Source of the DNA: Methylacidiphilum infernorum V4 | Lineage (GTDB): Bacteria > Verrucomicrobiota > Verrucomicrobiia > Methylacidiphilales > Methylacidiphilaceae | DNA length: 64,000 nucleotides | Reading direction: 5' to 3' | Assembly: GCF_000019665.1 (NCBI RefSeq) | Contig: NC_010794.1 | Span: 496,001 to 560,000, forward strand | Part shown: piece after piece, positions 7,758-22,145 of the stretch | Numbering within the stretch: the stretch's first letter is position 1 | Layout: each line of letters starts with the position of its first letter | Translations under genes and position numbers: made by a program | Notes under the pieces: generated by a model | Told to the model about the DNA's origin: nothing | What the model saw: only the letters and a program-made list of their open reading frames with translations | The model's database searches: none

Positions 7758-8981
7758 TTAGCCTGCTCTTCGTTGTCCCGGAAGATGCCCACTATTTTTT
7801 TTCAACAACCCGCGGAGGAATACGGAAGCAAAATTCCTACGGAGCCAGTGGAAAATGGCAACGGAAGCGGAGAGGGGAATGTAGAGGAAAGACAAAAAGG
7901 AGGGAAGGGGATAGTGCTTGACGATTTCTTCACTGGGGAAGCGGAGGGATTTCAAGGCAAAAAAAAGCTTGTCTTTTTTAGAAGAAAAGAGTTCAAAAAG
8001 GCTAAAGTGGCGGACGTAGGGGAAAGAAGAGGGGGAAGAAAAAATCTTCTCTTTTTTGATCCAGTTTTTACCCAGAGTTTCCAGGATTTCTGCCGGCACG
8101 GGGGTATCGTAGAGCGCTTGGGCCAGGGCAAGTCCAAGCATGCAAAATCTTTCCCATCCAAAATAAAACGCCTTGTCGGTGATCTCTTCCCATTCTTTTT
8201 CCTTGAAATTACTTTTTAAAACGTACTCGTGAACGTCGAGGAGATGACGCAGGCATTCCCAGCGGTGCTTGCTGCCGTGGACCAAGAGAAAGAGCAGTTC
8301 GTTGACCTTGTTCATCCTCCACAAGGAGATATTTTCCCACATTCCCAAGGTTTTTTCTTTCCAGATTGCCTGCAGAGCCCTGCGGTCGATCTTGGAGTTG
8401 AAAGCTACAGACCAATGCAGTTCGAGGATGGAAGGAGCGAAATCCAAGGGATTTTTTTTCTTGTACAACGAAATGTCCTTGTCCCAATAGAGAAGGGTCT
8501 TTAAATTTATCTTTCGGCCGGTCGATTCGCCGTATCCCAGTTCTTTTTGAAGGAGGAAGATCGTCTTGGGGACATCTTCCAAGCCAACCAAAAGATCGAT
8601 ATCGGTGGTGCTTTTTAACCTCCATTTTTCCCCGTAGAGCATTTGACTCAAGCCTATTCCCTTGAGCAGAATGGCCGCAATGCCTTCCCGGTTCAGGAGG
8701 TTCAAGATTTTTTTTTGTTCTTCAAAAAGCAAGTCATTTCTTTTGGCGGTGCTTTGGCAAAGGAGGGAGAGTTTTTTCTTGATTTCTCCAGGGTAGGGGA
8801 ACCTTCCGTTTAGGTTATCCAACACGAAACCCCAAAGGCCGTGAACGAAACAAAGATTGTAAAAAAGCTCCCAATGGAAGGACCCAAAAGAAAGGTTCTT
8901 CTTTATTTCATCCGTCTGTTCTTCTTTGAGGCTATCCCTTCCTAACAGGAGGACCGCCTTTTCCTCTGGTTTTAAATGCAT
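7758..8981 (-). CDS. Nucleotidyltransferase family protein (NTP_transf_5-like)
   Basis: A 407-residue soluble protein. Residues about 95-150 carry the pattern of the uncharacterised nucleotidyltransferase family PF14907: ILLKGIGLSQMLYGEKWRLKSTTDIDLLV, where the lysine/glycine strand is followed by a DxD pair. The rest is helical, with HWSVAFNS and a histidine-rich LLVHGSKHRWECLRHLLDVHEY segment. Members of this family often sit beside HprK-like and PqqD-like genes in peptide or polysaccharide loci, and here it is divergent from exactly such an operon. The reaction and substrate are unknown; it could modify the peptide products or be involved in their regulation. Confidence 0.75.
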   Translation of the reverse strand: MHLKPEEKAVLLLGRDSLKEEQTDEIKKNLSFGSFHWELFYNLCFVHGLWGFVLDNLNGRFPYPGEIKKKLSLLCQSTAKRNDLLFEEQKKILNLLNREGIAAILLKGIGLSQMLYGEKWRLKSTTDIDLLVGLEDVPKTIFLLQKELGYGESTGRKINLKTLLYWDKDISLYKKKNPLDFAPSILELHWSVAFNSKIDRRALQAIWKEKTLGMWENISLWRMNKVNELLFLLVHGSKHRWECLRHLLDVHEYVLKSNFKEKEWEEITDKAFYFGWERFCMLGLALAQALYDTPVPAEILETLGKNWIKKEKIFSSPSSFPYVRHFSLFELFSSKKDKLFFALKSLRFPSEEIVKHYPLPSFLSFLYIPLSASVAIFHWLRRNFASVFLRGLLKKNSGHLPGQRRAG

Positions 8982-9145: not shown

Positions 9146-9490
9146 ATGCAAACGGAAATCGATTTTAGCTCGTTTGAGTTTGAAGAATTGGAATCCCGCC
9201 AGCTTTTTGCCGCGGCGGCCGTTCCCCATCATTTGATTAACTTGAATTTGCCTTTGGATCTTTCATTGCAAGTAAACAATCCTGCCAACGGCCAGACTAT
9301 TATCAATTTGAATCTTCCTGCCGATCTTTCCCTTCACGTCAATCAACCCAGCCTGGCCGGGTTGGGCTCGACCCTTTCTTCGATCACCACCCCGGTAACG
9401 GGTTTGGTTACGGGCGTTGTGGGAGGGATCGTCAGTCCCCTATTGGGCACAGTCACAGGGCTCTTGGGTTCGGTCTTGGCGGCAGTTTAA
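9146..9490 (+). CDS. Candidate RiPP-like precursor or exported small protein A
   Basis: The 114-residue protein has an excellent ribosome site (AAGGAGG at 9130-9136). The N-terminus is acidic and lacks a normal signal peptide. It carries FEELESRQLFAAAAVPHHL at about residues 12-30, which resembles the LExRxL (LEPR-XLL-type) motif at the N-termini of exported PVC-group proteins. Two repeats follow, NLNLPLDLSLQVNNP and NLNLPADLSLHVNQP. The tail (about 75-114) is rich in Gly, Val, Leu and Thr, with no Cys and no aromatic residues. A paralogue lies immediately downstream, ahead of radical SAM, PqqD-like and export genes. I infer a leader-plus-core substrate of those enzymes. It could also be a structural surface or amyloid-like protein. 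Confidence 0.7.
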   Translation: MQTEIDFSSFEFEELESRQLFAAAAVPHHLINLNLPLDLSLQVNNPANGQTIINLNLPADLSLHVNQPSLAGLGSTLSSITTPVTGLVTGVVGGIVSPLLGTVTGLLGSVLAAV

Positions 9491-9507
9491 TCTTAAAAGC
9501 ATCAAAA

Positions 9508-9551
9508 GGGAGGGGCTTGTTATTACCTAGCTCCTCCCGGTTTGGAGGAGG
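9508..9551 (+). promoter_or_regulatory. Two mutually exclusive hairpins ahead of small-protein gene B
   Basis: Hairpin 1 pairs GGGAGGGGCT (9508-9517) with AGCTCCTCCC (9529-9538) in a 10-bp stem with one G-U pair and an 11-base loop. The right arm CTCCTCC (9531-9537) can instead pair perfectly with GGAGGAG (9544-9550), which is the ribosome site for the gene starting at 9559. The two structures exclude each other: hairpin 1 frees the ribosome site and hairpin 2 hides it. No U-run follows hairpin 1, so it is not a classical terminator. Translation of gene A, which stops at 9490, or a bound factor could decide between them. The pairing is visible in the sequence; its use as a switch is inference. 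Confidence 0.5.
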
Positions 9552-9558
9552 AAATGTG

Positions 9559-9972
9559 ATGGTTTTGAATAGAATGGCTATAAAAGAAGAAGAGGGTTTT
9601 TTTGAAATAGAGGGGCTTGAATCCCGCCAGCTTTTTGCTGCGGCGGCCGTCCCCCATCACCTGGTCAACTTGAACCTACCCTTGGACCTTTCGTTGCAAC
9701 TCAACAATCCGGTTACAAATCAACATCTCGTCAATGCCAACCTGCCCTTGGACATCCAGGCTCAATTGAACAATCCCCTTACGGGACAACCTCCTATTTA
9801 TGTGCATGTCGGTCTTGGAGGACCACAAGGGACTCTTCAAATTGGGCAATTAAATTTATCCCAAGATCTCCAACCCCTGCTCAGCGGGGTTAACGGCGTG
9901 TTAAATGTAGTAACAGGGGTAGCAAACGGGTTGCTTAGTCCTCTTTTGGGTGTAATTCTGAGTGTTATTTAA
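9559..9972 (+). CDS. Candidate RiPP-like precursor or exported small protein B (paralogue of A)
   Basis: The start at ATG 9559 is set by GGAGGAGG seven bases upstream and gives 137 residues; a longer ORF from TTG 9517 would run through the hairpin and is rejected. After a variable acidic N-terminus it repeats the block LESRQLFAAAAVPHHLVN almost exactly as in protein A. Repeats NLNLPLDLSLQLNNP and NANLPLDIQAQLNNP follow, then a longer middle section (QPPIYVHVGLGGPQG) and a hydrophobic tail ending LSPLLGVILSVI. Conservation is strongest in the putative leader and first repeat and weakest at the C-terminus. That is the pattern expected of substrates sharing a modification or export machine. Confidence 0.7.
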   Translation: MVLNRMAIKEEEGFFEIEGLESRQLFAAAAVPHHLVNLNLPLDLSLQLNNPVTNQHLVNANLPLDIQAQLNNPLTGQPPIYVHVGLGGPQGTLQIGQLNLSQDLQPLLSGVNGVLNVVTGVANGLLSPLLGVILSVI

Positions 9973-10007
9973 AAAAATAAAATAAAACCTTCTAGGAAAG
10001 GAGGAAT

Positions 10008-10252
10008 ATGGAAGAAGCAAATGCCTTGAGGTTGATCAACCTGGAGTGGATCGAGGAAAAGATAAAAGAAAAGGTGAAATTCATGTGGAAAAGTCCCGGT
10101 TTTTCTCCCTTGGGAAATATAGGTTCTTTTTCGGGCCAGGTCCCCGATCCAAGAGCTCAATTTATATCAATAACCGTGGCCATAACCATTGGATTATGAT
10201 TTTTTTTGAAAAAGCTGGCGAATTAAGGTATTCATGGAATGGCGGGATCTGA
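10008..10252 (+). CDS. Small operon protein, apparently broken by a -1 frameshift
   Basis: A strong ribosome site (AAAGGAGG) precedes ATG 10008. In that frame the product is 63 residues, ending at 10199 with a non-descript tail. Switching to the -1 frame near 10112-10120 (codons for LGNI versus LGKY) gives a much more protein-like continuation: KYRFFFGPGPRSKSS, then YINNRGHNHWIMIFFEK and RYSWNGGI, ending at 10252. The joined product would be about 81 residues and would overlap the next gene by 19 bases, as expected in this operon. It may be a recent mutation, a sequencing error or programmed frameshifting. I do not recognise the family. Confidence 0.45.
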
Positions 10253-11100
10253 AAACGGAGCCTATAGGAGTGGGTTATGGGCTTGGCCTATATAATCCAT
10301 CGAATAGTCCCATAAGGGAATGGTTTTTTTCCGGGCCCATCCTTTGGGGAAACTATCCCCTCAATGTTTCTTGCGTGGATTCTTTCCCCTTGGAGGAGCT
10401 GGGAAAGCCTCTTTTTAGCTTGGGGCCGTTGAGCCTGTTTTGTCATCCCCGGAGGATCCTCGTAGGAGACCTGTTCTTGTTTAGCTTGCAATCCGGTCAA
10501 CTCTTCTTTGCCTATAGATCCTTCGACTTGGAGAAATTCAAGTACTATTTTTACCAAGTCGTTTTACCCCTCTTTGGCCAATGCCTGGGCAAGCTCCTTT
10601 TCCTTCACGGGGGAGCTTTTGAAGTCCAGTCCAAAGCCGTCGGCCTTGTGGCCGCTTCCGGGGGAGGGAAATCGACTTTGCTTGCCGCCTTTCAAGAGCA
10701 GGGATATCCCTTGGTGGCCGACGACCGGATCGGGTTCGTTGTGGAATTGGGAGAACCTTGCATAGTTCCTTCCCATCCTTTCCTTAGAAATTACAGGAAA
10801 CCAGAAGAAATCGGCAGGCCCGTAAGTCTCTTTGCCCGGGAAATCCTCCCTCTTAAGAGTATTTTTTTCCTCCGTTGGACGGACAAAGATGAGCCTTGGA
10901 TTGAAAAGGTCGAGCCCTCCAAGGCTTTCCGGAACCTTTATTTGAACAGTTCTTTCGTGTTGGACGAAAGGGTTCACGCCCAAAAAATTCTGAAGTGGCT
11001 TACACGGATAAAGACCTACCGGTTGTATCTTCCGCAGGGAAAGAGAGAAACGGTACCCCAAGCTTGCGCAATGATCTTGTCCAAGGCTCTCGAAAGGTAA
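10234..11100 (+). CDS. HprK-like P-loop kinase-family protein
   Basis: A 288-residue protein whose C-terminal half has the HPr kinase/phosphorylase-like core. A strand with LFLHGGAFE precedes the Walker A sequence VAASGGGKSTLL (about 140-150), and VADDRIGF (about 161-168) matches the acidic ADD motif of the family. The N-terminal half has no recognised motif. Homologues next to PqqD-like proteins occur in lasso-peptide and other peptide loci, where some phosphorylate a peptide residue. Here no asparagine-synthase-like cyclase is present, so it is not a lasso cluster. The target could be small proteins A and B, which contain Ser and Thr. AAGG at 10226-10229 sits just upstream of the ATG. Confidence 0.75.
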   Translation: MEWRDLKTEPIGVGYGLGLYNPSNSPIREWFFSGPILWGNYPLNVSCVDSFPLEELGKPLFSLGPLSLFCHPRRILVGDLFLFSLQSGQLFFAYRSFDLEKFKYYFYQVVLPLFGQCLGKLLFLHGGAFEVQSKAVGLVAASGGGKSTLLAAFQEQGYPLVADDRIGFVVELGEPCIVPSHPFLRNYRKPEEIGRPVSLFAREILPLKSIFFLRWTDKDEPWIEKVEPSKAFRNLYLNSSFVLDERVHAQKILKWLTRIKTYRLYLPQGKRETVPQACAMILSKALER

Positions 11101-11108
11101 GAAAAAAG

Positions 11109-12167
11109 ATGATCCACTACTCGGTGTTGGGAATCATGCTCAGGAAAAAGTGCCCGCTACGGTGCGCCCACTGTATTACGGATTCTTCACCGGGTGCGGA
11201 AGGGGAGTTGGATGAAAGCTTTGTTTTCTCGCTCTTGGAAGAGGCGGTGGGTTATACTCCTGTAATCAGCTTTACGGGAGGAGAAGCCTTTGTCGATCCC
11301 GAAAAGTTGACACGGTGCGTGGCCAAGGCCAAGAGCTTGGGTTTAAAAGCGACGGCGGTGACGGGATGCGGTTGGGTCCGGTCGGAAAAGCAGGCTTTTG
11401 AAGTGGTTGAAAAAGTCCATGCCGCCGGTTTAGACCGGTTGTGCATCAGTTGGGACCGCTACCACGGAGTCTTTAAAAATGAATGGAAACTGAAGGCGGT
11501 GTCCCGGGCAGCGGGTCGGCTGGGCATCCCCTTGGTGATCCGCAGCGTCATCAGTCCCAACAAGTTAGAACCGGATATTCCGGAGCTGGGGGAAATAGCC
11601 TATACCCTGGAAAAAATCCCCTTGATCAAGCTGGGCCGGGCCGAGTTGCTTCCCGAGGAAGATTTTTTTTGGACGGATTCCCCTCCCATGGGAACCTGCG
11701 GGGTCGTCTTGGCTCCCGTGGTGGAATACGACGGCAGGGTGTTTGCCTGTTGCGGTCCTTCCCATTTTGCCCCCGGGCATTCTCCCCTTTTTTTGGGTGA
11801 TGCCAAGAAGAGGGCTCTAGGTGAAATTTTGAAGGAAGGCAGGGAAGATCCGATTCTAGAAACGATTGCCTTTGCGGGTTCTTACGGACTTTATAAAATC
11901 TTAAAAGATTATTTTCCGGCGGTCTCGGTCCCGGAAAGGAAATGCTATTCGAGCATATGCGACATATGCCTTGATGTTTTGAAAGACAAGGAGCTGATTG
12001 CAAAATTAAGGAGCTTTTTCTCTAGCCTTGAAGGAAAAGCCCTGCTGACGGCCATGCGGATGATGAGAAAGTATCAGGATAAACGCAAGGCTCAAGAAAA
12101 GGATGGGGAGGAGAGCTGTTGTGCGACACCAAGGACTCGAAGAGAGGTCGTTTATGGAAGGAGCTGA
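11109..12167 (+). CDS. Radical SAM enzyme with SPASM-like C-terminal cluster domain
   Basis: I chose ATG 11109, nine bases after the upstream stop, giving 352 residues. The canonical CxxxCxxC is C15, C19 and C22 (KKCPLRCAHC), and SFTGGEAF at about 60-67 is the SAM-binding GGE motif. The C-terminal part has C-x11-G-x4-C (TCGVVLAPVVEYDGRVFAC), which fits the first half of the SPASM signature, and later KCYSSICDIC (C-x4-C-x2-C). It can therefore bind at least one auxiliary iron-sulfur cluster, as in enzymes that form C-C, C-S or epimerised residues in peptides. The PqqD-like gene overlaps its end, and the two small-protein genes lie upstream. Confidence 0.85.
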   Translation: MIHYSVLGIMLRKKCPLRCAHCITDSSPGAEGELDESFVFSLLEEAVGYTPVISFTGGEAFVDPEKLTRCVAKAKSLGLKATAVTGCGWVRSEKQAFEVVEKVHAAGLDRLCISWDRYHGVFKNEWKLKAVSRAAGRLGIPLVIRSVISPNKLEPDIPELGEIAYTLEKIPLIKLGRAELLPEEDFFWTDSPPMGTCGVVLAPVVEYDGRVFACCGPSHFAPGHSPLFLGDAKKRALGEILKEGREDPILETIAFAGSYGLYKILKDYFPAVSVPERKCYSSICDICLDVLKDKELIAKLRSFFSSLEGKALLTAMRMMRKYQDKRKAQEKDGEESCCATPRTRREVVYGRS

Positions 12168-12462
12168 ATTGAAAAGGGTAGAAATCCCGGATTGGATCTG
12201 TTACGAACGGTTCGAAAACGAGCTGATCCTCCTCGATCCGACGACCTGGAACTACTATAGGTTAGACAGCTATGGAGGGGTATTGTGGGAAAAGCTTTGC
12301 AGCCTGAAAGGGGACGTGGAAGCCTTGAAAAGGTGGGTAGGGGAGCATTTCGATGGAGATCCAAGGCAAATGCAAAGCGATATCGACCGGTTTGTCAAGC
12401 AGTTGATCGAAAGCGGCCTTCTTCTTCTGCCGTCCGATTTAGACCGGGTCCAGGGTAAATAA
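12154..12462 (+). CDS. PqqD-like peptide-binding protein (RRE type)
   Basis: The ATG at 12154 with AGAGG upstream gives 102 residues and overlaps the radical SAM gene by 14 bases; ATG 12103 would give a longer, unlikely N-terminus. The sequence matches the PqqD fold: WICYERFENELILLDPTTWNYYRLDSYGGVLWEKL followed by a helical segment ending in FVKQLIESGLLL. PqqD-type domains hold the leader of a ribosomally made peptide and present it to a radical SAM enzyme. Here it most likely pairs with the enzyme at 11109-12167 and recognises the conserved LESRQLF block of small proteins A and B. Confidence 0.82.
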   Translation: MEGAELKRVEIPDWICYERFENELILLDPTTWNYYRLDSYGGVLWEKLCSLKGDVEALKRWVGEHFDGDPRQMQSDIDRFVKQLIESGLLLLPSDLDRVQGK

Positions 12463-12514
12463 AGAAGGGTTTGCCAATAAAACTAAAGAGCGGATTTTTT
12501 GTTTTTCCCAAGCG

Positions 12515-14635
12515 ATGGAAAAAAACAACGCTGCGGACTTGAACCTCTTTTCTCTTTCTCCGGAAAGGTTTGCCTCCATTTTAACTTCCCTTTTGCCTTC
12601 CATTGGCCGTTTAGAAGAGCTGTTTAATCTCGTCTTTCAGTACGTTTCGACGAATTTTTCCATCCGGGGAATGCAACTTGCAAGGCTCGAAGGAGCCCAG
12701 TGGCAAAGAGCCTGCTCTTTTCCCCAAGGACCTTTGCCCTGGGAAAGGGACTATGAAAAGAAAATTATGCTTGCCCAGCATCTCAACAAGGCCCTCGCAG
12801 GGAAAAGCTTTTGTTACTTTTCATGGGCTCTTTCCGACGGTCCCACCGGGCTTTTGTCCCATCCCCTGGAAGTCCAACCTCCTCTTTTCATGCACCATTT
12901 CCTTTTTCCCCTTTTTTCCGAAGAAAGTTTCCTCGGAGTGATCCATTACTGGTTTAGCGGAGAAAATGACCAGCAGTTTATAACTCGCCAATACGAGCTT
13001 TTGATCCCCATTCATTCTGCAATGGCCCGTGGCCTTGAGGAAGGCATGAGAACCAGGAAATGGAGCTTGGTTCCTCCCCTTTGGAGTCAATCTCCTTCCC
13101 TTTACCTCAACTACCTCGAGGAGCTGGCGCTCAATAAAAACGACGCCGAAAGGACGGGTTTTCTCTTGGTCAATTACTCGAGAGAGCTGGCTTGCAGTGA
13201 TCGCTGCTGTTTGTTTAGCGTTCCTTTGAACCGCAAGGGCTTTGCCTTTCTAGGCACGCAGGATTTCGATCAAGCCAGGCTATTTGAATTAAAAACGGCC
13301 AGCAGCCTTTTACAAGTTCAAAAACAAGCCGATCAAGCCCTGGTCCTCAAGGAGGCGGGGATAGCGTTGATCAAGGCCGCTAACCCCCGGCATTTTCTCG
13401 AGAAAAAGGTCCGGAAAAAAAACGGCAATTTCTTATTCTCCTTTTTGTTTGAAGAAGACAAACCGGATAACCGAAAAGAACGGATAGAGAACCGGCAACA
13501 AGCTCCACAAGAGCCTCTTCGGATCGGTTTTGCCTTGCGAGAAGCCGGATCTAAGGAAAGGCCAAGGCAGATTATCGAATATTTTCAGCATATCCCCATG
13601 AATTGGATTGCAGCCTTTCCCTTGTTGGACGATGGGAACAGGGTTTTTGGGTTTGTGACCTGGGAAGGGAAAGAGCCTGTCGTGGCCAGCCTTGAACTAT
13701 TCAGTCTTTTACAGAGGATCTGCCTTATAGGAGGTAAAAGCTTTGCCCAAGCTTACTTTAAGAAAAAAGCCTGGCTTTATCAATCCCGGGCTCTCAAGCC
13801 TCTTTTTTTAATTCCCCTTTTGATGATTTTGCTCCTGCTTGTGGCCTTTATTCCGTTGCCTATGAAAATCAAGGCCGATGCCGTCCTTCTCCCTTCCTAC
13901 GAAGTTGCCGTTCCCGCAATGGTTTCCGCCCGGATCGAGGCCATATACGTCCAAGTAGGTGATTACGTCAGCAAGGGAAAGCTTTTGATGACGCTGGATT
14001 CGACGAATATTAAGCTTAAGATCAAGGAAATCGAACAGGATTATAAAAAAAACATGGCCGAGGCGGACTTAGCCCAAAACCTTAAGCAAGAAACCGCAAT
14101 GCAACTTGCCCGGCTTAATGCCCTGAAATCCCAAGTCTTGCTCAAGAGCTTGTACAAGGATTATCAATATACTTTCGTCCGTGCTCCAAGGGATGGGGTG
14201 GTGATGGGTCCACATAACCTGGCCAGCCGCAGGGGGGAGTTGACCCAAATCGGGGAAATCCTCGTCCAGCTTGCCGACCCCTATTCCTGGAAAGTCAAGG
14301 GTTTCCTCAAGGAGGAGGATTTGACGTATTTAGCCGAGATCATGGAAAAGAACAAAAAGGCCCTGCCCATTTCTTTTAGGTTTTTGGCCGATCCCACGAA
14401 AAGCTACAGGCTTGCTTTGGATTCAACCGCCCAATTCGTTCACGGAGTCGAAATTGAAAAAGGCAAATACGAATTTTCTTTTCTCATCCCGTGGGAAGAA
14501 AAGAATATAGATCCCAGGCTTTTAAAAAAGGGATTTCGTGGAAAAGCCAAGATCTATGTAGGGCTAAGGCCTTTAGGTGAAATCCTCTTTAGAGACATTG
14601 TCCGGTTTTTAAAAATTCATGTTTTTTTCTGGTAA
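12515..14635 (+). CDS. HlyD-like membrane-fusion protein with a large cytoplasmic N-terminal domain
   Basis: A 706-residue protein. Residues 1 to about 425 look soluble and may contain GAF-like folds, though I cannot assign them firmly. One membrane helix follows (about 428-450, LFLIPLLMILLLLVAFIPL). After it comes a periplasmic HlyD-type adaptor with a split biotinyl-lipoyl motif (SARIEAIYVQVGDYVSKGKLLMTLD, then FVRAPRDGVVMG), a helical hairpin, and a beta-barrel region. An adaptor with such a long cytoplasmic domain is unusual and could sense cargo or a signal. Together with the next three genes it forms a complete export assembly. Confidence 0.75.
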   Translation: MEKNNAADLNLFSLSPERFASILTSLLPSIGRLEELFNLVFQYVSTNFSIRGMQLARLEGAQWQRACSFPQGPLPWERDYEKKIMLAQHLNKALAGKSFCYFSWALSDGPTGLLSHPLEVQPPLFMHHFLFPLFSEESFLGVIHYWFSGENDQQFITRQYELLIPIHSAMARGLEEGMRTRKWSLVPPLWSQSPSLYLNYLEELALNKNDAERTGFLLVNYSRELACSDRCCLFSVPLNRKGFAFLGTQDFDQARLFELKTASSLLQVQKQADQALVLKEAGIALIKAANPRHFLEKKVRKKNGNFLFSFLFEEDKPDNRKERIENRQQAPQEPLRIGFALREAGSKERPRQIIEYFQHIPMNWIAAFPLLDDGNRVFGFVTWEGKEPVVASLELFSLLQRICLIGGKSFAQAYFKKKAWLYQSRALKPLFLIPLLMILLLLVAFIPLPMKIKADAVLLPSYEVAVPAMVSARIEAIYVQVGDYVSKGKLLMTLDSTNIKLKIKEIEQDYKKNMAEADLAQNLKQETAMQLARLNALKSQVLLKSLYKDYQYTFVRAPRDGVVMGPHNLASRRGELTQIGEILVQLADPYSWKVKGFLKEEDLTYLAEIMEKNKKALPISFRFLADPTKSYRLALDSTAQFVHGVEIEKGKYEFSFLIPWEEKNIDPRLLKKGFRGKAKIYVGLRPLGEILFRDIVRFLKIHVFFW

Positions 14636-14744
14636 ATCCTGCGACGTTGAGGAAAATGAAAAGGAAATTCTAACAGAAGAGGTTTTAGGGTTTATTATCT
14701 CTTTATTTTTTCAAAAGAATTTCTAAAGGAACGGTTTTCTGGAG

Positions 14745-15692
14745 ATGAAATTTTGGCCTAGGTATGGGATCCCCGCTCAAGGGCTTTGTTTAAAAAAGGT
14801 TTTAGCCCGGATCCTTTTCTTTTTCTTTTTTTCTAGCTTGCCTCTTTGGGCTGCGGATGCCTCGGTTGACTTATCCGACCTGAACATGTCCGAGAGGCCT
14901 GTTGAAAATTTTCTTGAGGACAGGTCGGCTTCTTACCGGGCCATTCTGCTTCCTATTGAAGATGTTCGGATCAGCGCCAAAGCTTCGGGGATCTTGGAAA
15001 AATACTTTTTTGAAGAAGGGGCGGTTGTAAAAAAAGGGGATGTCATAGCCCAATTGAACACGGAGGAAGAAAAAACGGAAATAGCCCGGGCTGAAGCCCA
15101 ATTTAGCGTCTGCCAGGCGGAGCTAGAAAAGTCTCAAAGGGAATTTCAAAGGATTGAAAACCTTTATAAGGAGCAGGTCATCAGCCCCAAGCAATACGAG
15201 GAATCAAAATACCAATTGCAGATGGCCCAAGGTAAGCTCAAGGAAGCCATGGCCTTCTTGGAAGAAGCAAAAAATAGGCTTGAGGCCAAGATCGTCCGTT
15301 CTCCTATCGACGGGGTTTTTTTTAAAAAGTTGCGCACAATCGGGGAATCGGTGGAAAGGCTCGAACCCATAGGCAGGGTGATCAATGCCGCCCAGCTCCA
15401 GATGGTTGTTTATTGCGATTCAAAACATTTCGGTCAAATCCGTAGGGAGGACAAGTATTTTATAGAGCTTGTAGACGGCCCCTATGCGGGTGAAAAAGTC
15501 GAAGCGACGGTTGTCCACGTCGATCCTTTCCTAGACCCTGCAAGTGGCACCTTCCGTATCAAGCTCCATATCCCTTCTTCGAGCAAGGTCGTTGCCGGGA
15601 TCAGTGCGGAGTTGGTTATTCCCGAGCAAGAAAAGGATTTACCGAATTCTCCTACTGTTATCGGATTAAACGCGGTAAAAAAAAGCCCTTAA
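14745..15692 (+). CDS. HlyD-type periplasmic adaptor subunit
   Basis: A 315-residue protein with an N-terminal signal or anchor (a run of Phe/Leu residues ending SSLPLWAADA). It has the adaptor order: lipoyl half (ISAKASGILEKYFFEEGAVVKKGDVIAQL), alpha-helical hairpin (about 105-180), second lipoyl half (AKIVRSPIDGVFFKK) and a beta-barrel (VDGPYAGEKVEATVVHVDPFLDPASGTFRIKL). This is close to the RND/HlyD adaptor family. No RND pump is encoded nearby; instead the TolC-type gene starts five bases later and an M50 protease-HlyD fusion follows. Confidence 0.85.
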   Translation: MKFWPRYGIPAQGLCLKKVLARILFFFFFSSLPLWAADASVDLSDLNMSERPVENFLEDRSASYRAILLPIEDVRISAKASGILEKYFFEEGAVVKKGDVIAQLNTEEEKTEIARAEAQFSVCQAELEKSQREFQRIENLYKEQVISPKQYEESKYQLQMAQGKLKEAMAFLEEAKNRLEAKIVRSPIDGVFFKKLRTIGESVERLEPIGRVINAAQLQMVVYCDSKHFGQIRREDKYFIELVDGPYAGEKVEATVVHVDPFLDPASGTFRIKLHIPSSSKVVAGISAELVIPEQEKDLPNSPTVIGLNAVKKSP

Positions 15693-15696
15693 AGCT

Positions 15697-17100
15697 ATGA
15701 ACAAAAACTCTGTTTTCCTTTTATTCTCTTGCTCATTGGCTTTTTCTTTCCTTTCCTTTATGCCCGGTTTAGCCCAGCAAAATTCTGAACAATCGACTCC
15801 CGTTTTTTCCAGCGTCAAAAAACCGATTGAGCTGATCTATCCCCGGGAATATCAAGTGAGCACGGCTAAAAAGTGGACGTTAGAAGAGGTAATCCAGCGA
15901 GCCCTGGATGCCAACCCCGACGTCGTCTCTGCCCGTAAGGCCATCGAACAGCAGGAAGGGATTAAAATGCAGTTTAAAGCCAAGCTTTATCCTCATGGAG
16001 GATTGGTTTACCGTGCCCAGCGTGAACAAAGCTCCCTGTTAATGTTTCTGCCCACGGTTCCAACTTATCCGCTGACCCGAACGAGCTGGCTTGGAGCTGT
16101 GCAGATCAAGCAAACGATCCTTAACATTGGCGCGGTTAAAGAGGCAAGACAGCAGAAGGAGCTCTTGGAAAGGGCGGTATGGCTATCGATGGATGTAGCG
16201 TTGAAAACGGTGGTGCAAGTCAAGGAAGCTTTTTACTTGACCCTTTTTAGGCAAGAGGTCGTGGAAATCAGGGAAGAATTAACCGAAGCCAGCCATGCGA
16301 TTGCTGAATATACCAAGAAAATGGCGAAGGAAGGGGAGGTGCCTGAATACCAGGCGTTGGTTGCCCAAGCGGAATATTCCACTGCCCTTGGCGATCTTGC
16401 CCAGGCAAAAGCCGCCTACGTAAAGTCAAGAGAAGGGCTTCGGATGTTGCTTAATCTGCCCAGCAACAATGAAAATGATCCCTTGTATCTTGTTGGCCAA
16501 GCCGAACTGCCTGCCTTTGACGTTCCTTATGAAGAAGCACTCAAAGTGGCTTTGCAAAAACGGACGGATTTAAATGCCGCGCTGCATTCGCTTTCGGCAG
16601 CTCATGCCGCGGTGGCTGCCGCCCAATCCAGCTATTATCCAACCTTGGATGCTGTTCTCCAGTATGAAAACATCAGCAATGTTTACATCCTTTATCCCAA
16701 GTGGGGGTGGACGGCGGGTGTGCAAGGCCAGTGGAACTTTTTTGACATCATGGAAAACAACGGAAGGATAAAGACCCAAAAGGCCCTGGAAAACATTGCC
16801 CAGGTTAAAGTCAACCAGCTTAAAATCGACATTCCGGCACAACTGCGGGAACTTTACCAACAGATAAAAAAGGCTAAGGAAGCCGTAGCCTTCCAAGAAA
16901 GTGCCGTGAACGATGCCGAAAAGGGCTTTAACCAGGCAAAAAAGCTTTTTGAGGGCGGGGAAACGAGTTGGGTCCAAGCGGTAACCGCCCGCCAGGCCTT
17001 GCTTAAGGCCAAGTTAGCCTTTGCTGAAGCGACTTACAATTACAAGGCTGCACTAGCCCAGTTGGAGTATGCTGTAGGAGGACAACTTCCAGCCCAGTAA
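15697..17100 (+). CDS. TolC-family outer-membrane channel
   Basis: A 467-residue protein with a signal peptide ending near PGLAQ (about residue 27). It has the duplicated long-helix architecture of TolC-type proteins. Segments such as WTLEEVIQRALDANPDVVSARKAI and VPYEEALKVALQKRTDLNAALHSL mark the two internal repeats, and QSSYYPTLDAVLQYEN and WNFFDIMENNGRIKTQKA are typical membrane-strand and helix junctions. It should form the outer-membrane conduit for the adaptors on either side. It begins five bases after the HlyD stop and ends seven bases before the M50 gene. Confidence 0.88.
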   Translation: MNKNSVFLLFSCSLAFSFLSFMPGLAQQNSEQSTPVFSSVKKPIELIYPREYQVSTAKKWTLEEVIQRALDANPDVVSARKAIEQQEGIKMQFKAKLYPHGGLVYRAQREQSSLLMFLPTVPTYPLTRTSWLGAVQIKQTILNIGAVKEARQQKELLERAVWLSMDVALKTVVQVKEAFYLTLFRQEVVEIREELTEASHAIAEYTKKMAKEGEVPEYQALVAQAEYSTALGDLAQAKAAYVKSREGLRMLLNLPSNNENDPLYLVGQAELPAFDVPYEEALKVALQKRTDLNAALHSLSAAHAAVAAAQSSYYPTLDAVLQYENISNVYILYPKWGWTAGVQGQWNFFDIMENNGRIKTQKALENIAQVKVNQLKIDIPAQLRELYQQIKKAKEAVAFQESAVNDAEKGFNQAKKLFEGGETSWVQAVTARQALLKAKLAFAEATYNYKAALAQLEYAVGGQLPAQ

Positions 17101-17106
17101 TCGGCC

Positions 17107-19302
17107 ATGATCATGCCAGGAAAGGTGCTGCCGTCGGCTCAAAAAACCGCCGATATTGTTCCTTACAAGCTTCGTTCCGACCTGCTTTTTCAAAAACAAC
17201 TTTTTCAGAACAAAACTTACTTCGTGGTTAAGGATCCCCTGGCATTGACTTACTGTCGGCTGCCCGAAGCGGAAGCTTTCCTGGCCGGTCTATTCGATGG
17301 AAAAAGAACGGCTGAAGACATTGCACGGGAATATAACCGGTGGTTTCCCCAAAAACCCCTTAGCCCTCCGCAGGTGTTGCAGTTTTTAAATCTCCTTCTG
17401 AAACGGAACTTAGTTATCCTTCCCACAGAGGTTTTCTTATCCAGGATTCCTCGACAGGTCCCCCTTTGGAAAAGGCTGTGGAGTTATGGGCTGAAAATTT
17501 TCTTTATTAAGCTTCCTTTGATCCGACCTTCCCTTTGGTTGGATTGGATCGTCCGCAGGCTATGGTGGTTGTGGTCACCCCAGGGAGTGTTCCTCACGGT
17601 CTGTTTTTGGATCTGGACTCTTTTTTTTCTTTTCCTGCATCGTTCCGCTTTCCTGACCAACCAGGTCCAGTTTCTTTCTCCCCAAAATATCCTGCTTCTC
17701 TACATCGCCACGGCTATTGATAAAACCCTGCATGAATTCGGTCATGCCGCCACTTGCCGTCGTTTCGGTGGAGAAATCCATGAAATGGGGGTAGGTTTTT
17801 TCTTTTTCATTCCTGTGGGTTATGTGGACGCTTCGGACAGTTGGATTATCCCCGACAAAAAAGCCAGGATCTTTATTGCGGCTGCCGGCGTTTATACCGA
17901 GCTCATCATCGCCGCCATTGCCGCCCATCTCTGGATTTTATTTCCCCTGGGATTGGCCAAGAACTTGGCCTTTAACATGATGGTTTTGGCCAGTGTCACG
18001 ACCCTTTTTTTTAATTTTAACCCCTTGATGAAATTTGACGGTTATTACGCCTTGGTCGATCTGCTGGAAATTCCCAACTTAAGAGAAAAGGCCTTTGCCT
18101 ATTGCACGGCGAAAATCCAGGACTGGCTATTGGGCTATAAAAACGCCAGGCAAGCAAGACTGCAAGTCAACCCAACCCAAGGCTGGATCTTTTTTATTTA
18201 TTCTTTTTTAGCGATCGGCTACATGCTTTACTTGATCCATTCCTTGGGGAAAGCCCTGCAGGGTGGCCTTAAAGAGGTTGGCCTTGGAAAGATCGGGGAA
18301 ATTTTAAATCTAGCCATAGCCGTGGTTTTTGTCGGGGCCGTGTTCATGAAAGTTTTCTTACCTCCCCTGGTTTCTCGCCACTTTGCCTTCGAAAACCGGA
18401 AAACCTTGACCGACCGATTAAAATGGATGGGCTTGGGGTTCCTTTTTTTGGGAGGGCTTCTTTTTTTCCCGAGTAGAGAAAAACTGGCTACTGTAGCGGT
18501 AGCCCAATCTCAATGGGGACAAAACGTGTCGAGCCCTGAGGGAGGAATTGTCAAGGAAGTTTGGGTTTGGAGCGGGCAGCGGGTTCGAGTGGGGCAGGCT
18601 TTGTTAAGGTTGGAGAATCATCGGGTTGAAACCGATTTGCAGTTAGCCCGGTTAGACTTAGCCATGAAAAACCTAGAAGTTTCCTCCCTTGGCCATTTAT
18701 CCCAAAGGACAAAGGCTAAGGAGGAGGAAACCATGGCAATGAAAGTCGAAGAATTCCGTTCTATGCAAAAGAAATTTGAACTGGCGCTCAAAAGAAAGGA
18801 AGAACTCGTTCTCAGGTCAACGATCGATGGCATTGTGGTCAGTCCCGAAGTGGAAAAATTAGTAGGAAGGTATTTTCGTCCCGGAGAAACCCTTTTAAAA
18901 ATAAGAAACTTGGAACTCTATTCTTTTCTCGTTCCTTTAACGGCGGCCGAAGCCCGGATCGTTTCTCCCGGTGCCGAAGTCAAGGGTATTTGGATCGGTT
19001 CAGGAAGAACTTTTCAGTCTTTCGTTAAGCAGGTCGGTCAAAAAAAGGTCGAACGATCCGAGATTCCTCCCGGCCTCCTTATCCCTTTTGGAGGAAAAGT
19101 CCCCCTGATTCCTCCGGCCATGAAAGAACAACAGGAAAAAAATCCCTACCTTTTTGCTTTCGTTCCCGTACCTAAAAAAGACATTCCCCTGGTCTTGGAC
19201 GATATGAGAGCAAAAATAATCATAAAGGGAAAGAAAACGATTCTCGGTGCAAAACTCTACCGGCTCTTCACCACTCTTTTTATTTCCAGGCAGGAAGATT
19301 GA
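17107..19302 (+). CDS. PqqD-like / M50 site-2 protease / HlyD fusion protein
   Basis: A 731-residue membrane protein with three parts. Residues about 15-105 look like a PqqD-like winged-helix domain (YFVVKDPLALTYCRLPEAE, then QVLQFLNLLLKRNLVIL). The middle is a polytopic M50 metalloprotease core with HEFGH at about 209-213 and a second-site motif NPLMKFDGYYALVD near 311-322. From about residue 470 it is a HlyD-like adaptor (GGIVKEVWVWSGQRVRVGQALLRL, then VLRSTIDGIVVSPEV). Such fusions accompany export of ribosomal peptides or small proteins. The PqqD-like part could bind the same leader as the separate PqqD-like protein, so that cleavage and export are coupled; that coupling is inference. Confidence 0.82.
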   Translation: MIMPGKVLPSAQKTADIVPYKLRSDLLFQKQLFQNKTYFVVKDPLALTYCRLPEAEAFLAGLFDGKRTAEDIAREYNRWFPQKPLSPPQVLQFLNLLLKRNLVILPTEVFLSRIPRQVPLWKRLWSYGLKIFFIKLPLIRPSLWLDWIVRRLWWLWSPQGVFLTVCFWIWTLFFLFLHRSAFLTNQVQFLSPQNILLLYIATAIDKTLHEFGHAATCRRFGGEIHEMGVGFFFFIPVGYVDASDSWIIPDKKARIFIAAAGVYTELIIAAIAAHLWILFPLGLAKNLAFNMMVLASVTTLFFNFNPLMKFDGYYALVDLLEIPNLREKAFAYCTAKIQDWLLGYKNARQARLQVNPTQGWIFFIYSFLAIGYMLYLIHSLGKALQGGLKEVGLGKIGEILNLAIAVVFVGAVFMKVFLPPLVSRHFAFENRKTLTDRLKWMGLGFLFLGGLLFFPSREKLATVAVAQSQWGQNVSSPEGGIVKEVWVWSGQRVRVGQALLRLENHRVETDLQLARLDLAMKNLEVSSLGHLSQRTKAKEEETMAMKVEEFRSMQKKFELALKRKEELVLRSTIDGIVVSPEVEKLVGRYFRPGETLLKIRNLELYSFLVPLTAAEARIVSPGAEVKGIWIGSGRTFQSFVKQVGQKKVERSEIPPGLLIPFGGKVPLIPPAMKEQQEKNPYLFAFVPVPKKDIPLVLDDMRAKIIIKGKKTILGAKLYRLFTTLFISRQED

Positions 19303-19653
19303 ATAGCTAGCGGGAATTTTATCTTGTCAAGGCCTGCCGCTCCACGGGTTCTCCCTGCTAAGGGAGGTTGAATACTAGGAACCCCTTTTGGCTTTCTTGC
19401 TTTACTGGGACCGTTCTCCTGGACTTGTGCCTTCCAGGGAGCTTATCTTTTGAAGGATCATCGATGGCTCTCTTCGTTCCAGAAACGAGCTTCTTTTATG
19501 GGACAGAAGATCTTAGGCTTGCTTTTTCTTTTCCCCTGGGAGGTTCTAGAAAGGTTGGGCAAGCCCAGGTAAATTATTTTTTGTCTGCAGGGGAGTAAAA
19601 GGGAAAAGGGGACTACTTTTTCTTGGCATGTTTTGTGCTTAAAAAAGCTTGAG
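19303..19653. other. Intergenic region between the export operon and the ATP-grasp operon
   Basis: No gene is supported here. A short open frame (19368-19598) would need a TTG start with no spacing from its ribosome site and resembles nothing recognisable. CTCCC/GGGAG arms at 19351-19366 make only a weak hairpin without a T-run. The region probably holds the promoter for the operon beginning at 19654, but I see no convincing -35/-10 pair. Confidence 0.5.
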
Positions 19654-21165
19654 ATGCCTTTTGTCTTTCCTTTTTTGTCGAACGGAAAAAATCATCCTCT
19701 CTATGGGCTTTCCCTCCTTGATAATTATAAAAAACTTTCCGATCGCTCGGACGAGACCTTGGATTCCAACGGGTATCCCAAAAAAAGCTACCTTCCCTTT
19801 TGGGAGTTGATCCTATCCAGGGGAGGCCTTGACAAGTTGATCCTAGCCCAAAAAGGAGCTTGCGATCGGTTCAGGCGACTGGGAGTAACTTTTCTATTAA
19901 AAAATGACAAGGAGAAAGCCAAGGAAAGGATCTTTCCCTTCGATGTTATTCCCAGGCTGATCCTTAAAAAAGAATGGGAAAAGATTAAAATAGGGCTCAT
20001 TCAAAGGTTAAGGGCCCTTAACCTTTTTATCGAGGATGTTTATCACGATCGGCGGATACTCAAGCAAGGAGTTGTTCCCGAGGAGTTGGTGTCGACTTCT
20101 CCAGGCTTTATCAAGCAGATGGCTGGAGTCGAGGTTCCGGCGAAGGTCTATGCGGCGGTTTGTGGATGCGATCTTATAAGAGATGGGGATGGCGATTTCG
20201 TCGTGCTTGAAGACAACTTGAGGATACCCAGCGGGGCTTCCTACATGCTTGTCGCCCGCAAGGTTTTAAAAGAAAGTTCCCCCTTTTTCTTTTCTTTCCA
20301 TAGACCTTTATCGATCCAATCCTATCCTCTTTTCCTTTTAGAAACCCTTTTGGATCTCCATCCTTCCGGATCCAAAGAAGAGGGGGCGGCCCTTTGGACC
20401 CCGGGGCCATACAACTCCGCCTACTTCGAACATGCCTTTTTAGCAAACCAGATGGGAATTCCCCTTGTCGAATCTCGGGATCTATTCATCGAGGAGGGGA
20501 GACTTTACTTCGCCTCGAGGAAAAGAAAAAAGAGAATTTCGGTCCTCTACCGGCGGATCGAGGAAAGCTTCTTGGATCCATCGGTTTTTAGGGCCGATTC
20601 GTTGATCGGCCTAAGCAGTATCTTCGAACTCTTTTGCAAAGGGGAACTGAACCTGGTGAATGCCCCGGGTTGTGGCGTGGCCGATGACAAAGTCCTTTAC
20701 AGGTTTGTCCCGGAGATCATCCGCTATTACCTGGGAGAAGAACCGATTCTTCGCAACGTGGAGACCTACTGTTGTCTTGATCCCAAGGAAAGAAGCTACG
20801 TCTTGGAAAATATCGAGCGGTTGGTCGTTAAAGAGGCCAACCAGTCGGGAGGAATGGGAATGCTGATCGGACCGCTCAGTTCTTCCCGCGAGAGGGAAGA
20901 ATTTAAAGAGAAAATTAGGGCTAATCCCCGAAACTACATCGCCCAGCCCCTCATCTCGTTTTCCAAGCTCCCCTGTCTTGTCGATAAAGGAATAGAGGCA
21001 AGAAGGGTGGATTTGCGCCCCTTTGTTCTTTTGGGAAAAGAGCCCCGCGTGGTTCCAGGCGGACTAACCCGGGTGGCTCTCGATCACAACTCCTTTATCG
21101 TGAATTCCTCTCAAGGCGGGGGGAGCAAAGATTGTTGGGTTATTGATGATGAAGACCAACGGTGA
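19654..21165 (+). CDS. Circularly permuted ATP-grasp type 2 protein
   Basis: The ATG at 19654 gives 503 residues; a TTG at 19633 is possible. The protein has family signatures of the circularly permuted ATP-grasp group (DUF404/DUF407): RLRALNLFIEDVYHDRRILKQGVVPEELV, VCGCDLIRDGDGDFVVLEDNLRIPSGASYM, LVNAPGCGVADDKVLYRFVPEIIRYYLGEEP, VKEANQSGGMGMLIG and RRVDLRPFVL. ATP-grasp enzymes make amide or peptide-like bonds through an acyl phosphate. It is followed by an overlapping alpha-E gene, the standard partner, and a transglutaminase-like gene. That trio is widespread but its product is not well defined; a peptide-like modification is likely. Confidence 0.88.
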   Translation: MPFVFPFLSNGKNHPLYGLSLLDNYKKLSDRSDETLDSNGYPKKSYLPFWELILSRGGLDKLILAQKGACDRFRRLGVTFLLKNDKEKAKERIFPFDVIPRLILKKEWEKIKIGLIQRLRALNLFIEDVYHDRRILKQGVVPEELVSTSPGFIKQMAGVEVPAKVYAAVCGCDLIRDGDGDFVVLEDNLRIPSGASYMLVARKVLKESSPFFFSFHRPLSIQSYPLFLLETLLDLHPSGSKEEGAALWTPGPYNSAYFEHAFLANQMGIPLVESRDLFIEEGRLYFASRKRKKRISVLYRRIEESFLDPSVFRADSLIGLSSIFELFCKGELNLVNAPGCGVADDKVLYRFVPEIIRYYLGEEPILRNVETYCCLDPKERSYVLENIERLVVKEANQSGGMGMLIGPLSSSREREEFKEKIRANPRNYIAQPLISFSKLPCLVDKGIEARRVDLRPFVLLGKEPRVVPGGLTRVALDHNSFIVNSSQGGGSKDCWVIDDEDQR

Positions 21166-22075
21166 GAGACAGCGGCTGGAAAACGTGTACTGGATGGCGA
21201 GGTATGCCGAAAGGGCCCTTTTGACTCTCAACGTTGCCCAGAACTACTTGGGCTATGGCCTGGAAGCTTCAGAAGAAAACTGGTCCAGTTGCTGGGAAAG
21301 AATAAAAAAAGGGTTGAGAATTTCCCGTTGCCCGGCCGATTTTTCGGGGAAGATAGCTTGTTGCTTTTTCTTTCTCGTGTTTGATCCCGACAACTCCCTC
21401 TCCGCTTTTTCTTCCCTTTTTTCTGCAAGGGAAAATGCCAAGGTACTGCGGGATTGGCTTCCTTTAGCTCTTTGGGAAGAACTCAACAGCGCTTATTTTT
21501 TAATTTCTTCGACGACGGCCAGCTCATCGAATTTACCTTCCTCTCTTTATCCTTTTCTTCGGAACATTTTGGAAAGGCTTTTGCTCATCCGCCAATGGGA
21601 AGACTATCTCTTGGAAGAGGATTGTCTTTGGGCCTGGCTCAAAATCGGAGAAAGCCTTGAAAAAGTAGGAAACGGCGCAGCCTTTTTCTCTGCCTATCAT
21701 CCCGCCGATAACAAGGATCCGTTCCCTTTTGAAGAATGGGAAGCTTTCTTAAGTTCCCTTTTCCTCCTTGATCTTGTAAAAAAGAAAATCCCTCTCCATG
21801 AACTCAGTTTTGAAAAGATAGCTTCCTACATGTTTGAACTTTCCCTGTATTCGTATTCTTTTCCCTCCCAACTCAACAAGATCCTCCATTACATGGAACT
21901 GCTCTCTGGGCAGTGGGCCATGGAAACGGCACAAGCCAAGACCAATGAACTTTTAACCAAGGTGCTTGAAAGGGCAAAAGAGGGGTTTGGGGCTGAATCG
22001 ACGAAAAAATTATTCTTGGATATTCAAATCGAATGCAACCAGATCCACCAGTACCTGTTATCGGCCCTGGATTAA
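21146..22075 (+). CDS. Alpha-E domain protein (DUF403)
   Basis: About 309 residues, starting at ATG 21146 within the 3' end of the ATP-grasp gene (20-base overlap). It opens with the family signature ENVYWMARYAERALLTLNVAQNYL and is otherwise almost all helical, ending TKKLFLDIQIECNQIHQYLLSALD. Alpha-E proteins are encoded with, or fused to, circularly permuted ATP-grasp proteins and are thought to assist them; their exact activity is not known. The next gene contains both domains in one chain, so this locus has two ATP-grasp/alpha-E pairs. Confidence 0.85.
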   Translation: MMKTNGERQRLENVYWMARYAERALLTLNVAQNYLGYGLEASEENWSSCWERIKKGLRISRCPADFSGKIACCFFFLVFDPDNSLSAFSSLFSARENAKVLRDWLPLALWEELNSAYFLISSTTASSSNLPSSLYPFLRNILERLLLIRQWEDYLLEEDCLWAWLKIGESLEKVGNGAAFFSAYHPADNKDPFPFEEWEAFLSSLFLLDLVKKKIPLHELSFEKIASYMFELSLYSYSFPSQLNKILHYMELLSGQWAMETAQAKTNELLTKVLERAKEGFGAESTKKLFLDIQIECNQIHQYLLSALD

Positions 22076-22145
22076 GAAGGCATAAGCCTTTTTCTTTGGG
22101 GAATTTTTTTGTTTTTTGGATCCATTCAAAGTAGAGATAAAAACC

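Follow-up and report, generated by a model that had tools for sequence, protein, structure and literature searches.

Two small paralogous proteins, s1 and s2, each with an LESRQLF block near the N-terminus, are encoded at the head of an operon of Methylacidiphilum infernorum V4 that contains both peptide-modifying enzymes and export proteins, raising the question of which of the two sets they serve. The window, the whole stretch of DNA analysed, comprises 64,000 nucleotides and corresponds to bases 496001-560000 of the single 2,287,145-bp contig. The original prediction treated s1 and s2 as precursors of an undescribed RiPP-like system, modified by the radical SAM (rSAM) and HprK-like enzymes. 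They are best read instead as short secreted cargo of an exporter centred on an RRE-M50-HlyD fusion protein (M50-HlyD), because their tag tracks the export half of the operon, and rSAM, HprK and PqqD form a separate module for which s3, a third small gene, is the likelier precursor.

Organisation and conservation of the locus

The operon runs in the order s1, s2, s3, HprK-like, rSAM, PqqD, GAF-HlyD, HlyD, TolC and M50-HlyD, entirely on the + strand and with gaps of no more than about 110 bases. All of the enzyme and export genes named in the original prediction were present on this strand where it had placed them, with family matches, and the gene order confirms that genes for peptide modification and for export share one operon. 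The s1 gene (9146-9490) encodes a LExR-tagged protein of 114 amino acids (LESRQLFAAAAVPHH) and s2 (9559-9972) its tagged paralogue, both predicted to be cargo. The s2 reading frame opens with TTG at 9517; the start is most likely the ATG at 9559, with GGAGGAGG upstream. A GC-rich hairpin at 9507-9552, directly 5' of the s2 ribosome-binding site, was not significant when compared with shuffled sequences (z -1.9). The 63-amino-acid s3 gene (10008-10199), overlooked by the original prediction, has its own Shine-Dalgarno sequence. It is followed by genes for a HprK-related kinase-like protein (10234-11100; TIGR04352, 7.9e-07, below cutoff; Walker A motif SGGGKST), an EpeE/YydG epimerase-like rSAM enzyme (11109-12167), a putative PqqD-like leader-binding protein (12154-12462; PF05402, 7.2e-12, over cutoff), a GAF-GAF-HlyD protein (12515-14635), a HlyD/RND-type periplasmic adaptor (14745-15692; TIGR01730, 6.5e-44, over cutoff), a TolC-type outer-membrane channel (OEP; 15697-17100; PF02321, 8.2e-44) and, last, the M50-HlyD fusion (17107-19302; PF02163, 7e-09; NF041824, 6.2e-50, below cutoff), the proposed tag reader. 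The starts of rSAM and PqqD are corrected ones, ATG at 11109 and 12154 respectively.

The locus is kept in five genomes of the genus, from a divergent NTP_transf_5 nucleotidyltransferase gene (7758-8981, - strand; PF14907, 4.1e-38) through to an ATP-grasp gene downstream, TolC excepted. Orthologues of s1 and s2 in all five genomes, with dN/dS well below 1, bear out both as real genes, and purifying selection is evident in s1, s2 and s3 alike. TolC is a remnant between hlyD and M50-HlyD in three of the five (L017, L019 and L020), and the M50-HlyD frame of genome G004 is split into three pieces. On the 3' side of the operon, 19633-24527 holds a circularly permuted ATP-grasp/Alpha-E cassette, the first gene of which is kept there in all five genomes.

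Identity of the N-terminal motif

Judged by sequence resemblance, LESRQLF is a variant of the N-terminal motif LExRxLL, represented by Planc_extracel in Pfam (PF07595) and LEPR-XLL in NCBIfam (NF012209). Planc_extracel aligns with s1 residues 12-23 at E 0.5 and with the s2 motif at E 0.15, both sub-threshold, and because the PF07595 scores (10.6 and 12.3 bits) fall under the cutoff of 25.5, s1 and s2 are termed LExR-tagged by resemblance and linkage and not as curated members of the family. A large linked relative exceeds the LEPR-XLL cutoff (20.3 against 17); s1 scores 1.6e-8 with the LExR profile described below, of which it is a training member. The N-terminal L-E-x-R-x-L core is found in both proteins and kept across the five genomes. 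The near identity of the two blocks, emphasised in the original prediction, holds in the window but not genus-wide, the blocks of three relatives being less alike, with LESRELFAAAAVPHH in s1 and LE[SA]RELFAAVALPHH in s2. In s1 and s2 the tag is followed by the small residues AAAA, and inspection of the sequences found no hydrophobic Sec core before it. The C-termini are hydrophobic and Gly-rich, on which account a two-peptide bacteriocin was considered as a conceivable reading of s1 and s2.

The motif, in the form RRLxxExLExRxLLA, has been put forward as a possible N-terminal signal for export (Studholme et al. 2004, cited in PMC8567305). In its available part, the latter paper reports the motif in 52 Tuwongella proteins, including eight of the ten longest, regards the tagged proteins as surface proteins and names no export machine for the motif. 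Nor was any paper naming an exporter of LExR/LEPR-XLL proteins found in the literature open to reading.

Distribution of the tag and its linkage to the proposed exporter

PF07595 was too short and narrow for a census, matching 5 of 289 Verrucomicrobiota genomes, and was therefore replaced by two profiles built from linked loci: A2, a 24-position LExR profile, and A6, a profile of the variant tag LE[DEK]R[IV]LF[DE][AG]A, which is N-terminal in neighbours at M50-HlyD loci missed by A2. A2 matched 21 of the 289 genomes at E ≤ 0.001, every one with M50-HlyD, and A6 matched 31, of which 30 have M50-HlyD. With the two combined, M50-HlyD was present in 51 of 52 tag genomes and the tag in one of 222 genomes without M50-HlyD (Fisher 3e-41); leaving out the genomes that supplied profile rows gave 33 of 34 (4e-29), and a sample of 195 Planctomycetota gave 28 of 29, against 57 of 195 overall (6e-17), all of these p-values treating genomes as independent and ignoring relatedness. 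The best guard in this respect is the concordance within family f12, where M50-HlyD and the tag at E ≤ 0.01 are found in one and the same set of nine genomes, with turnover of both inside genera g26 and g28. Twelve M50-HlyD genomes gave no tag match even at E 0.01, and no cargo was seen at L057-L059, which are among their loci, in a census that used short profiles on many fragmented contigs and scored a limited number of M50 candidates per genome. Tagged open frames of 18,000-20,466 residues were observed in Verrucomicrobiota genomes G053, G056, G125 and G190.

The rSAM gene, by comparison, occurs in 5 of the 289 genomes, all of this genus, and M50-HlyD in 67. The expected co-occurrence of the small proteins with the entire enzyme set thus breaks down for the rSAM and HprK half, without which homologues of the tag are widespread, most tag genomes having no rSAM; it survives for the M50-HlyD exporter, which the tag tracks.

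Tag and exporter are also linked on the chromosome. A tag gene lay within 10 kb of M50-HlyD in 10 of 20 genomes (expected 0.19) and a variant tag within 20 kb in 17 of 30 (expected 0.69); with training loci excluded, the corresponding counts were 5 of 15 (expected 0.14, p 1e-7) and 8 of 21 (expected 0.38, p 7e-10). Raw motif counts across 100 loci (13 loci against a mean of 1.3 for scrambled motifs) were given no weight because planctomycetes carry many tag genes. At five loci the cargo gene is part of the export operon itself: its start overlaps the hlyD stop at L079 and lies 23 and 58 bases beyond hlyD at L056 and L080, and the genes at L065 and L069 run from GAF-HlyD through M50-HlyD and the SecA-like ATPase to the tagged giant. 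Linkage extends to an alphaproteobacterium and to Fibrobacter: in Sedimentitalea the sole tag match, a 9708-aa ORF, directly follows the operon, and Fibrobacter succinogenes has a tagged ORF of 6177 aa that terminates just 5' of M50-HlyD.

The M50-HlyD protein, its partners and a second export set

The predicted fusion of a PqqD-like domain with M50 and HlyD was upheld, a leader-binding-type (RRE) domain being predicted at the N-terminus of a single protein that also contains an M50 intramembrane protease and a HlyD-type periplasmic adaptor. Among 13 diverse relatives the M50 residues of HExxH and NP..DGYY do not vary. The N-terminal 120 residues are confidently predicted as three strands and three helices, with AF2 pLDDT above 90 over the RRE region (residues 21-100), and the best PDB matches of the model in Foldseek, at a modest E-value of 4e-3, are the lasso leader-binding proteins TbiB1 and B1 with leaders, and PqqD. 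The N-terminus of the window protein alone gave no Pfam match; those of 13 of 17 relatives match PqqD (PF05402) by sequence. Because direct comparison of the PqqD and M50 N-terminal profiles was weak, reliance was placed on structure and per-member Pfam matches, by which the modelled domain qualifies as an RRE with the beta3-alpha3 winged-helix PqqD-like fold. It precedes the first membrane segment and therefore probably faces the cytoplasm.

The GAF-HlyD protein comprises two cytoplasmic GAF-like domains, one transmembrane segment and a periplasmic adaptor (HlyD_3, 3.4e-07), residues 1-430 being modelled by AF2 as a tandem GAF (pLDDT 74; best Foldseek match 2.7e-07). Across 100 M50-HlyD loci the recurrent neighbours were HlyD (67 loci), TolC (23 loci), GAF-HlyD-type proteins (51 proteins) and a SecA-like ATPase (27 loci; one member matching PF07517 at 1.9e-89), the last of which is a possible energizer of the exporter. 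This SecA paralogue of about 670 aa was seen near M50-HlyD at L060:251-2281, L065, L069, L127, L138, L149 and others. No ABC, RND or SecA-like energizer was found in the window operon, and a search of the genome returned one SecA gene only. The only recurrent ABC-like cluster occurred at 8 of the 100 loci, at a median distance of 5 kb.

The genome encodes one paralogue of M50-HlyD (41% identity; G000:C1:129563-131719), accompanied by GAF-HlyD, HlyD and TolC and, like the window operon, by no ABC transporter. Since this second locus is without HprK, rSAM and PqqD, the export and modification sets are separable inside one genome. Two LExR phosphoesterases of 1231 and 1208 aa, which start with MKKKLRIESLEKRYLMHAAPV and have C-terminal phosphoesterase domains, are encoded 6-20 kb from the second M50-HlyD and are the genome's best two Planc_extracel matches; all four tag matches of the genome lie at its only two M50-HlyD loci. 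Between the two phosphoesterase genes, a TonB-dependent receptor (L007:11583-14774; G000:C1 ~115.6-118.8 kb) carries a third LExR-like start (MKQPIEYLERRYRMQITPV) in a fusion that has the appearance of a recombination product.

The modification module and s3

The rSAM enzyme matches PF04055 over cutoff and TIGR04078 (YydG) under cutoff (2.2e-29; 102.9 bits against 300). Its nearest solved structure is the peptide epimerase EpeE/YydG (PDB 8ai6, 5.9e-19), in comparison with which it keeps the CxxxCxxC motif and a CC pair. The pair aligns with the CC of 8ai6, and would correspond to EpeE Cys223, the catalytic role of which has been reported (PMC8326336), only if the 344-residue chain has a 25-residue N-terminal tag. 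Together with these export genes, rSAM, HprK and PqqD occur only in this genus. In a sister genus, HprK, rSAM (35-38%), PqqD and NTP_transf_5 are found within lasso-peptide clusters (L021-L024) that also hold a cyclase (NF033535, 463 bits against a cutoff of 525), an ABC exporter and a lasso leader (NF033521, over cutoff); an additional EpeE-like rSAM beside HprK and PqqD makes these an unusual lasso set. A lasso-peptide reading of the window itself is rejected, no cyclase, protease or leader having been found there, which agrees with the absence of cyclase genes reported in the original prediction. The divergent NTP_transf_5 gene, copies of which (50-60% identical) adjoin the locus in the other four genus genomes, belongs with the same kind of RiPP-type module.

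The sister-genus clusters indicate that the modification set has its own RiPP history, and since s3 directly precedes this set it is a better precursor candidate than s1 or s2; we infer that s3 is the likelier precursor of rSAM, HprK and PqqD. It is kept in all five genus genomes, the relatives being 60-63% identical to the window copy with dN/dS of about 0.4 or less, and reads MEE..INLEIFEEKIKEKVKFMWK.P.FSPLGNLS.FSNQ.PD.RAQLL.ATALATVGL in them. Profile searches gave no family match for s3.

Proposed mechanism and alternative explanations

We consider it likely that the locus encodes machinery for exporting LExR-tagged proteins and that the operon houses a RiPP-type modification module as well. 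Comparison of sequences supplies the identity of the tag, its co-distribution and linkage with the machine and the intact M50 residues, and comparison of the predicted structure supplies the RRE fold; from these we infer tag binding, cleavage, route, energy source and s3 as a substrate, as follows. The s1 and s2 proteins would be made with the N-terminal LExRxL[FL] tag, which the RRE at the N-terminus of M50-HlyD would bind on the cytoplasmic side, in the way that RiPP leaders are recognised by other RRE domains. A cut at or after the tag, where the small residues AAAA follow, would probably be made by the M50 membrane domain, and the two other adaptors and TolC would take the protein across the periplasm and outer membrane. 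The SecA-like ATPase present in the operon of many relatives may push the chain; for the window operon, housekeeping SecA or an unlinked ATPase would have to serve. HprK, rSAM, PqqD and NTP_transf_5 more likely act on s3, by epimerization and perhaps phosphorylation, and the s3 peptide may share the exporter. Counting against the proposal are the operon's want of an energizer, the modest Foldseek E-value and weak profile comparison for the RRE, the twelve M50-HlyD genomes with no tag match, and, among the five genus genomes, the loss of TolC from the operon in three and the broken M50-HlyD frame in one.

The original view, in which LESRQLF is a leader, HprK and rSAM modify s1 and s2, and M50-HlyD trims and exports them, has in its favour the same operon order in five genomes, the RRE domain predicted on the exporter and the stand-alone PqqD. 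We regard it as unlikely, given that the tag is found in 52 and rSAM in 5 of the 289 genomes, that tagged frames elsewhere reach 20,466 aa, that the second export set of the same genome stands near tagged phosphoesterases with no rSAM, and that s3 adjoins the enzymes and has a better size for a precursor. There is a slightly smaller chance that M50-HlyD is a surface-anchoring or processing protease acting on LExR proteins that have crossed the inner membrane earlier by another pathway. M50 chemistry is proteolysis, the operon is without an energizer and the tagged Tuwongella proteins are regarded as surface proteins, all of which would fit; against this stand the adaptor and TolC genes of the operon, the probably cytoplasmic RRE and the tag of s1 and s2, which no hydrophobic Sec core precedes. 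Finally, tag and M50-HlyD might be mere markers of PVC-type lineages, functionally unconnected, with LExR proteins leaving the cell in some other manner. Both are commonest in the same phyla, and in planctomycetes numerous tag genes lie apart from M50-HlyD, but the nine-to-nine concordance and turnover within f12, and linkage far beyond chance that recurs in an alphaproteobacterium and Fibrobacter, make this very improbable.

Comparison with known systems

Under the preferred reading, s1 and s2 as exported cargo, the tag is a known but orphan export signal, and the transport genes probably represent its reading machine in Verrucomicrobia, Planctomycetes and further groups. Although LExRxLL is found on numerous giant surface proteins of bacteria, it has lacked an assigned machine since 2004, and the locus supplies a named candidate. 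The question is directly testable because this candidate and two very short predicted cargo proteins occur in an organism with a small genome. Whether this amounts to a new secretion class, in which a RiPP-type leader-binding domain on an intramembrane protease-adaptor fusion reads an N-terminal LExR tag and proteins of ~110 to ~20,000 residues exit through TolC without an ABC transporter in Verrucomicrobia, Planctomycetes, Fibrobacter and some Alphaproteobacteria, we judge to be evenly balanced. If true, a RiPP-style leader-recognition domain would have been put to use in protein secretion.

Carriers of LEPR-XLL/Planc_extracel share with s1 and s2 the N-terminal placement and the L-E-x-R-x-L core, but are large surface-type proteins, whereas s1 and s2 are short and fall under the Pfam cutoff. 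HlyD-type adaptors and TolC are common to the operon and to type 1 secretion or tripartite HlyD-TolC systems, from which the operon differs in having no ABC transporter, an RRE-M50 protease fused to an adaptor and a tag that is N-terminal. Epipeptide (EpeXEPAB/YydF-J) and daptide clusters contain members of the wider groups to which the EpeE-like rSAM and the M50 protease of the operon belong; here, however, both proteins are under their NCBIfam cutoffs, RRE and HlyD are joined to the M50 in one chain, no EpeX-like peptide was recognised at the locus, and rSAM and M50-HlyD do not occur together outside this genus. The lasso clusters of the sister genus have HprK, rSAM, PqqD and NTP_transf_5 in common with the window, which differs from them in its want of a lasso cyclase, ABC exporter and lasso leader.
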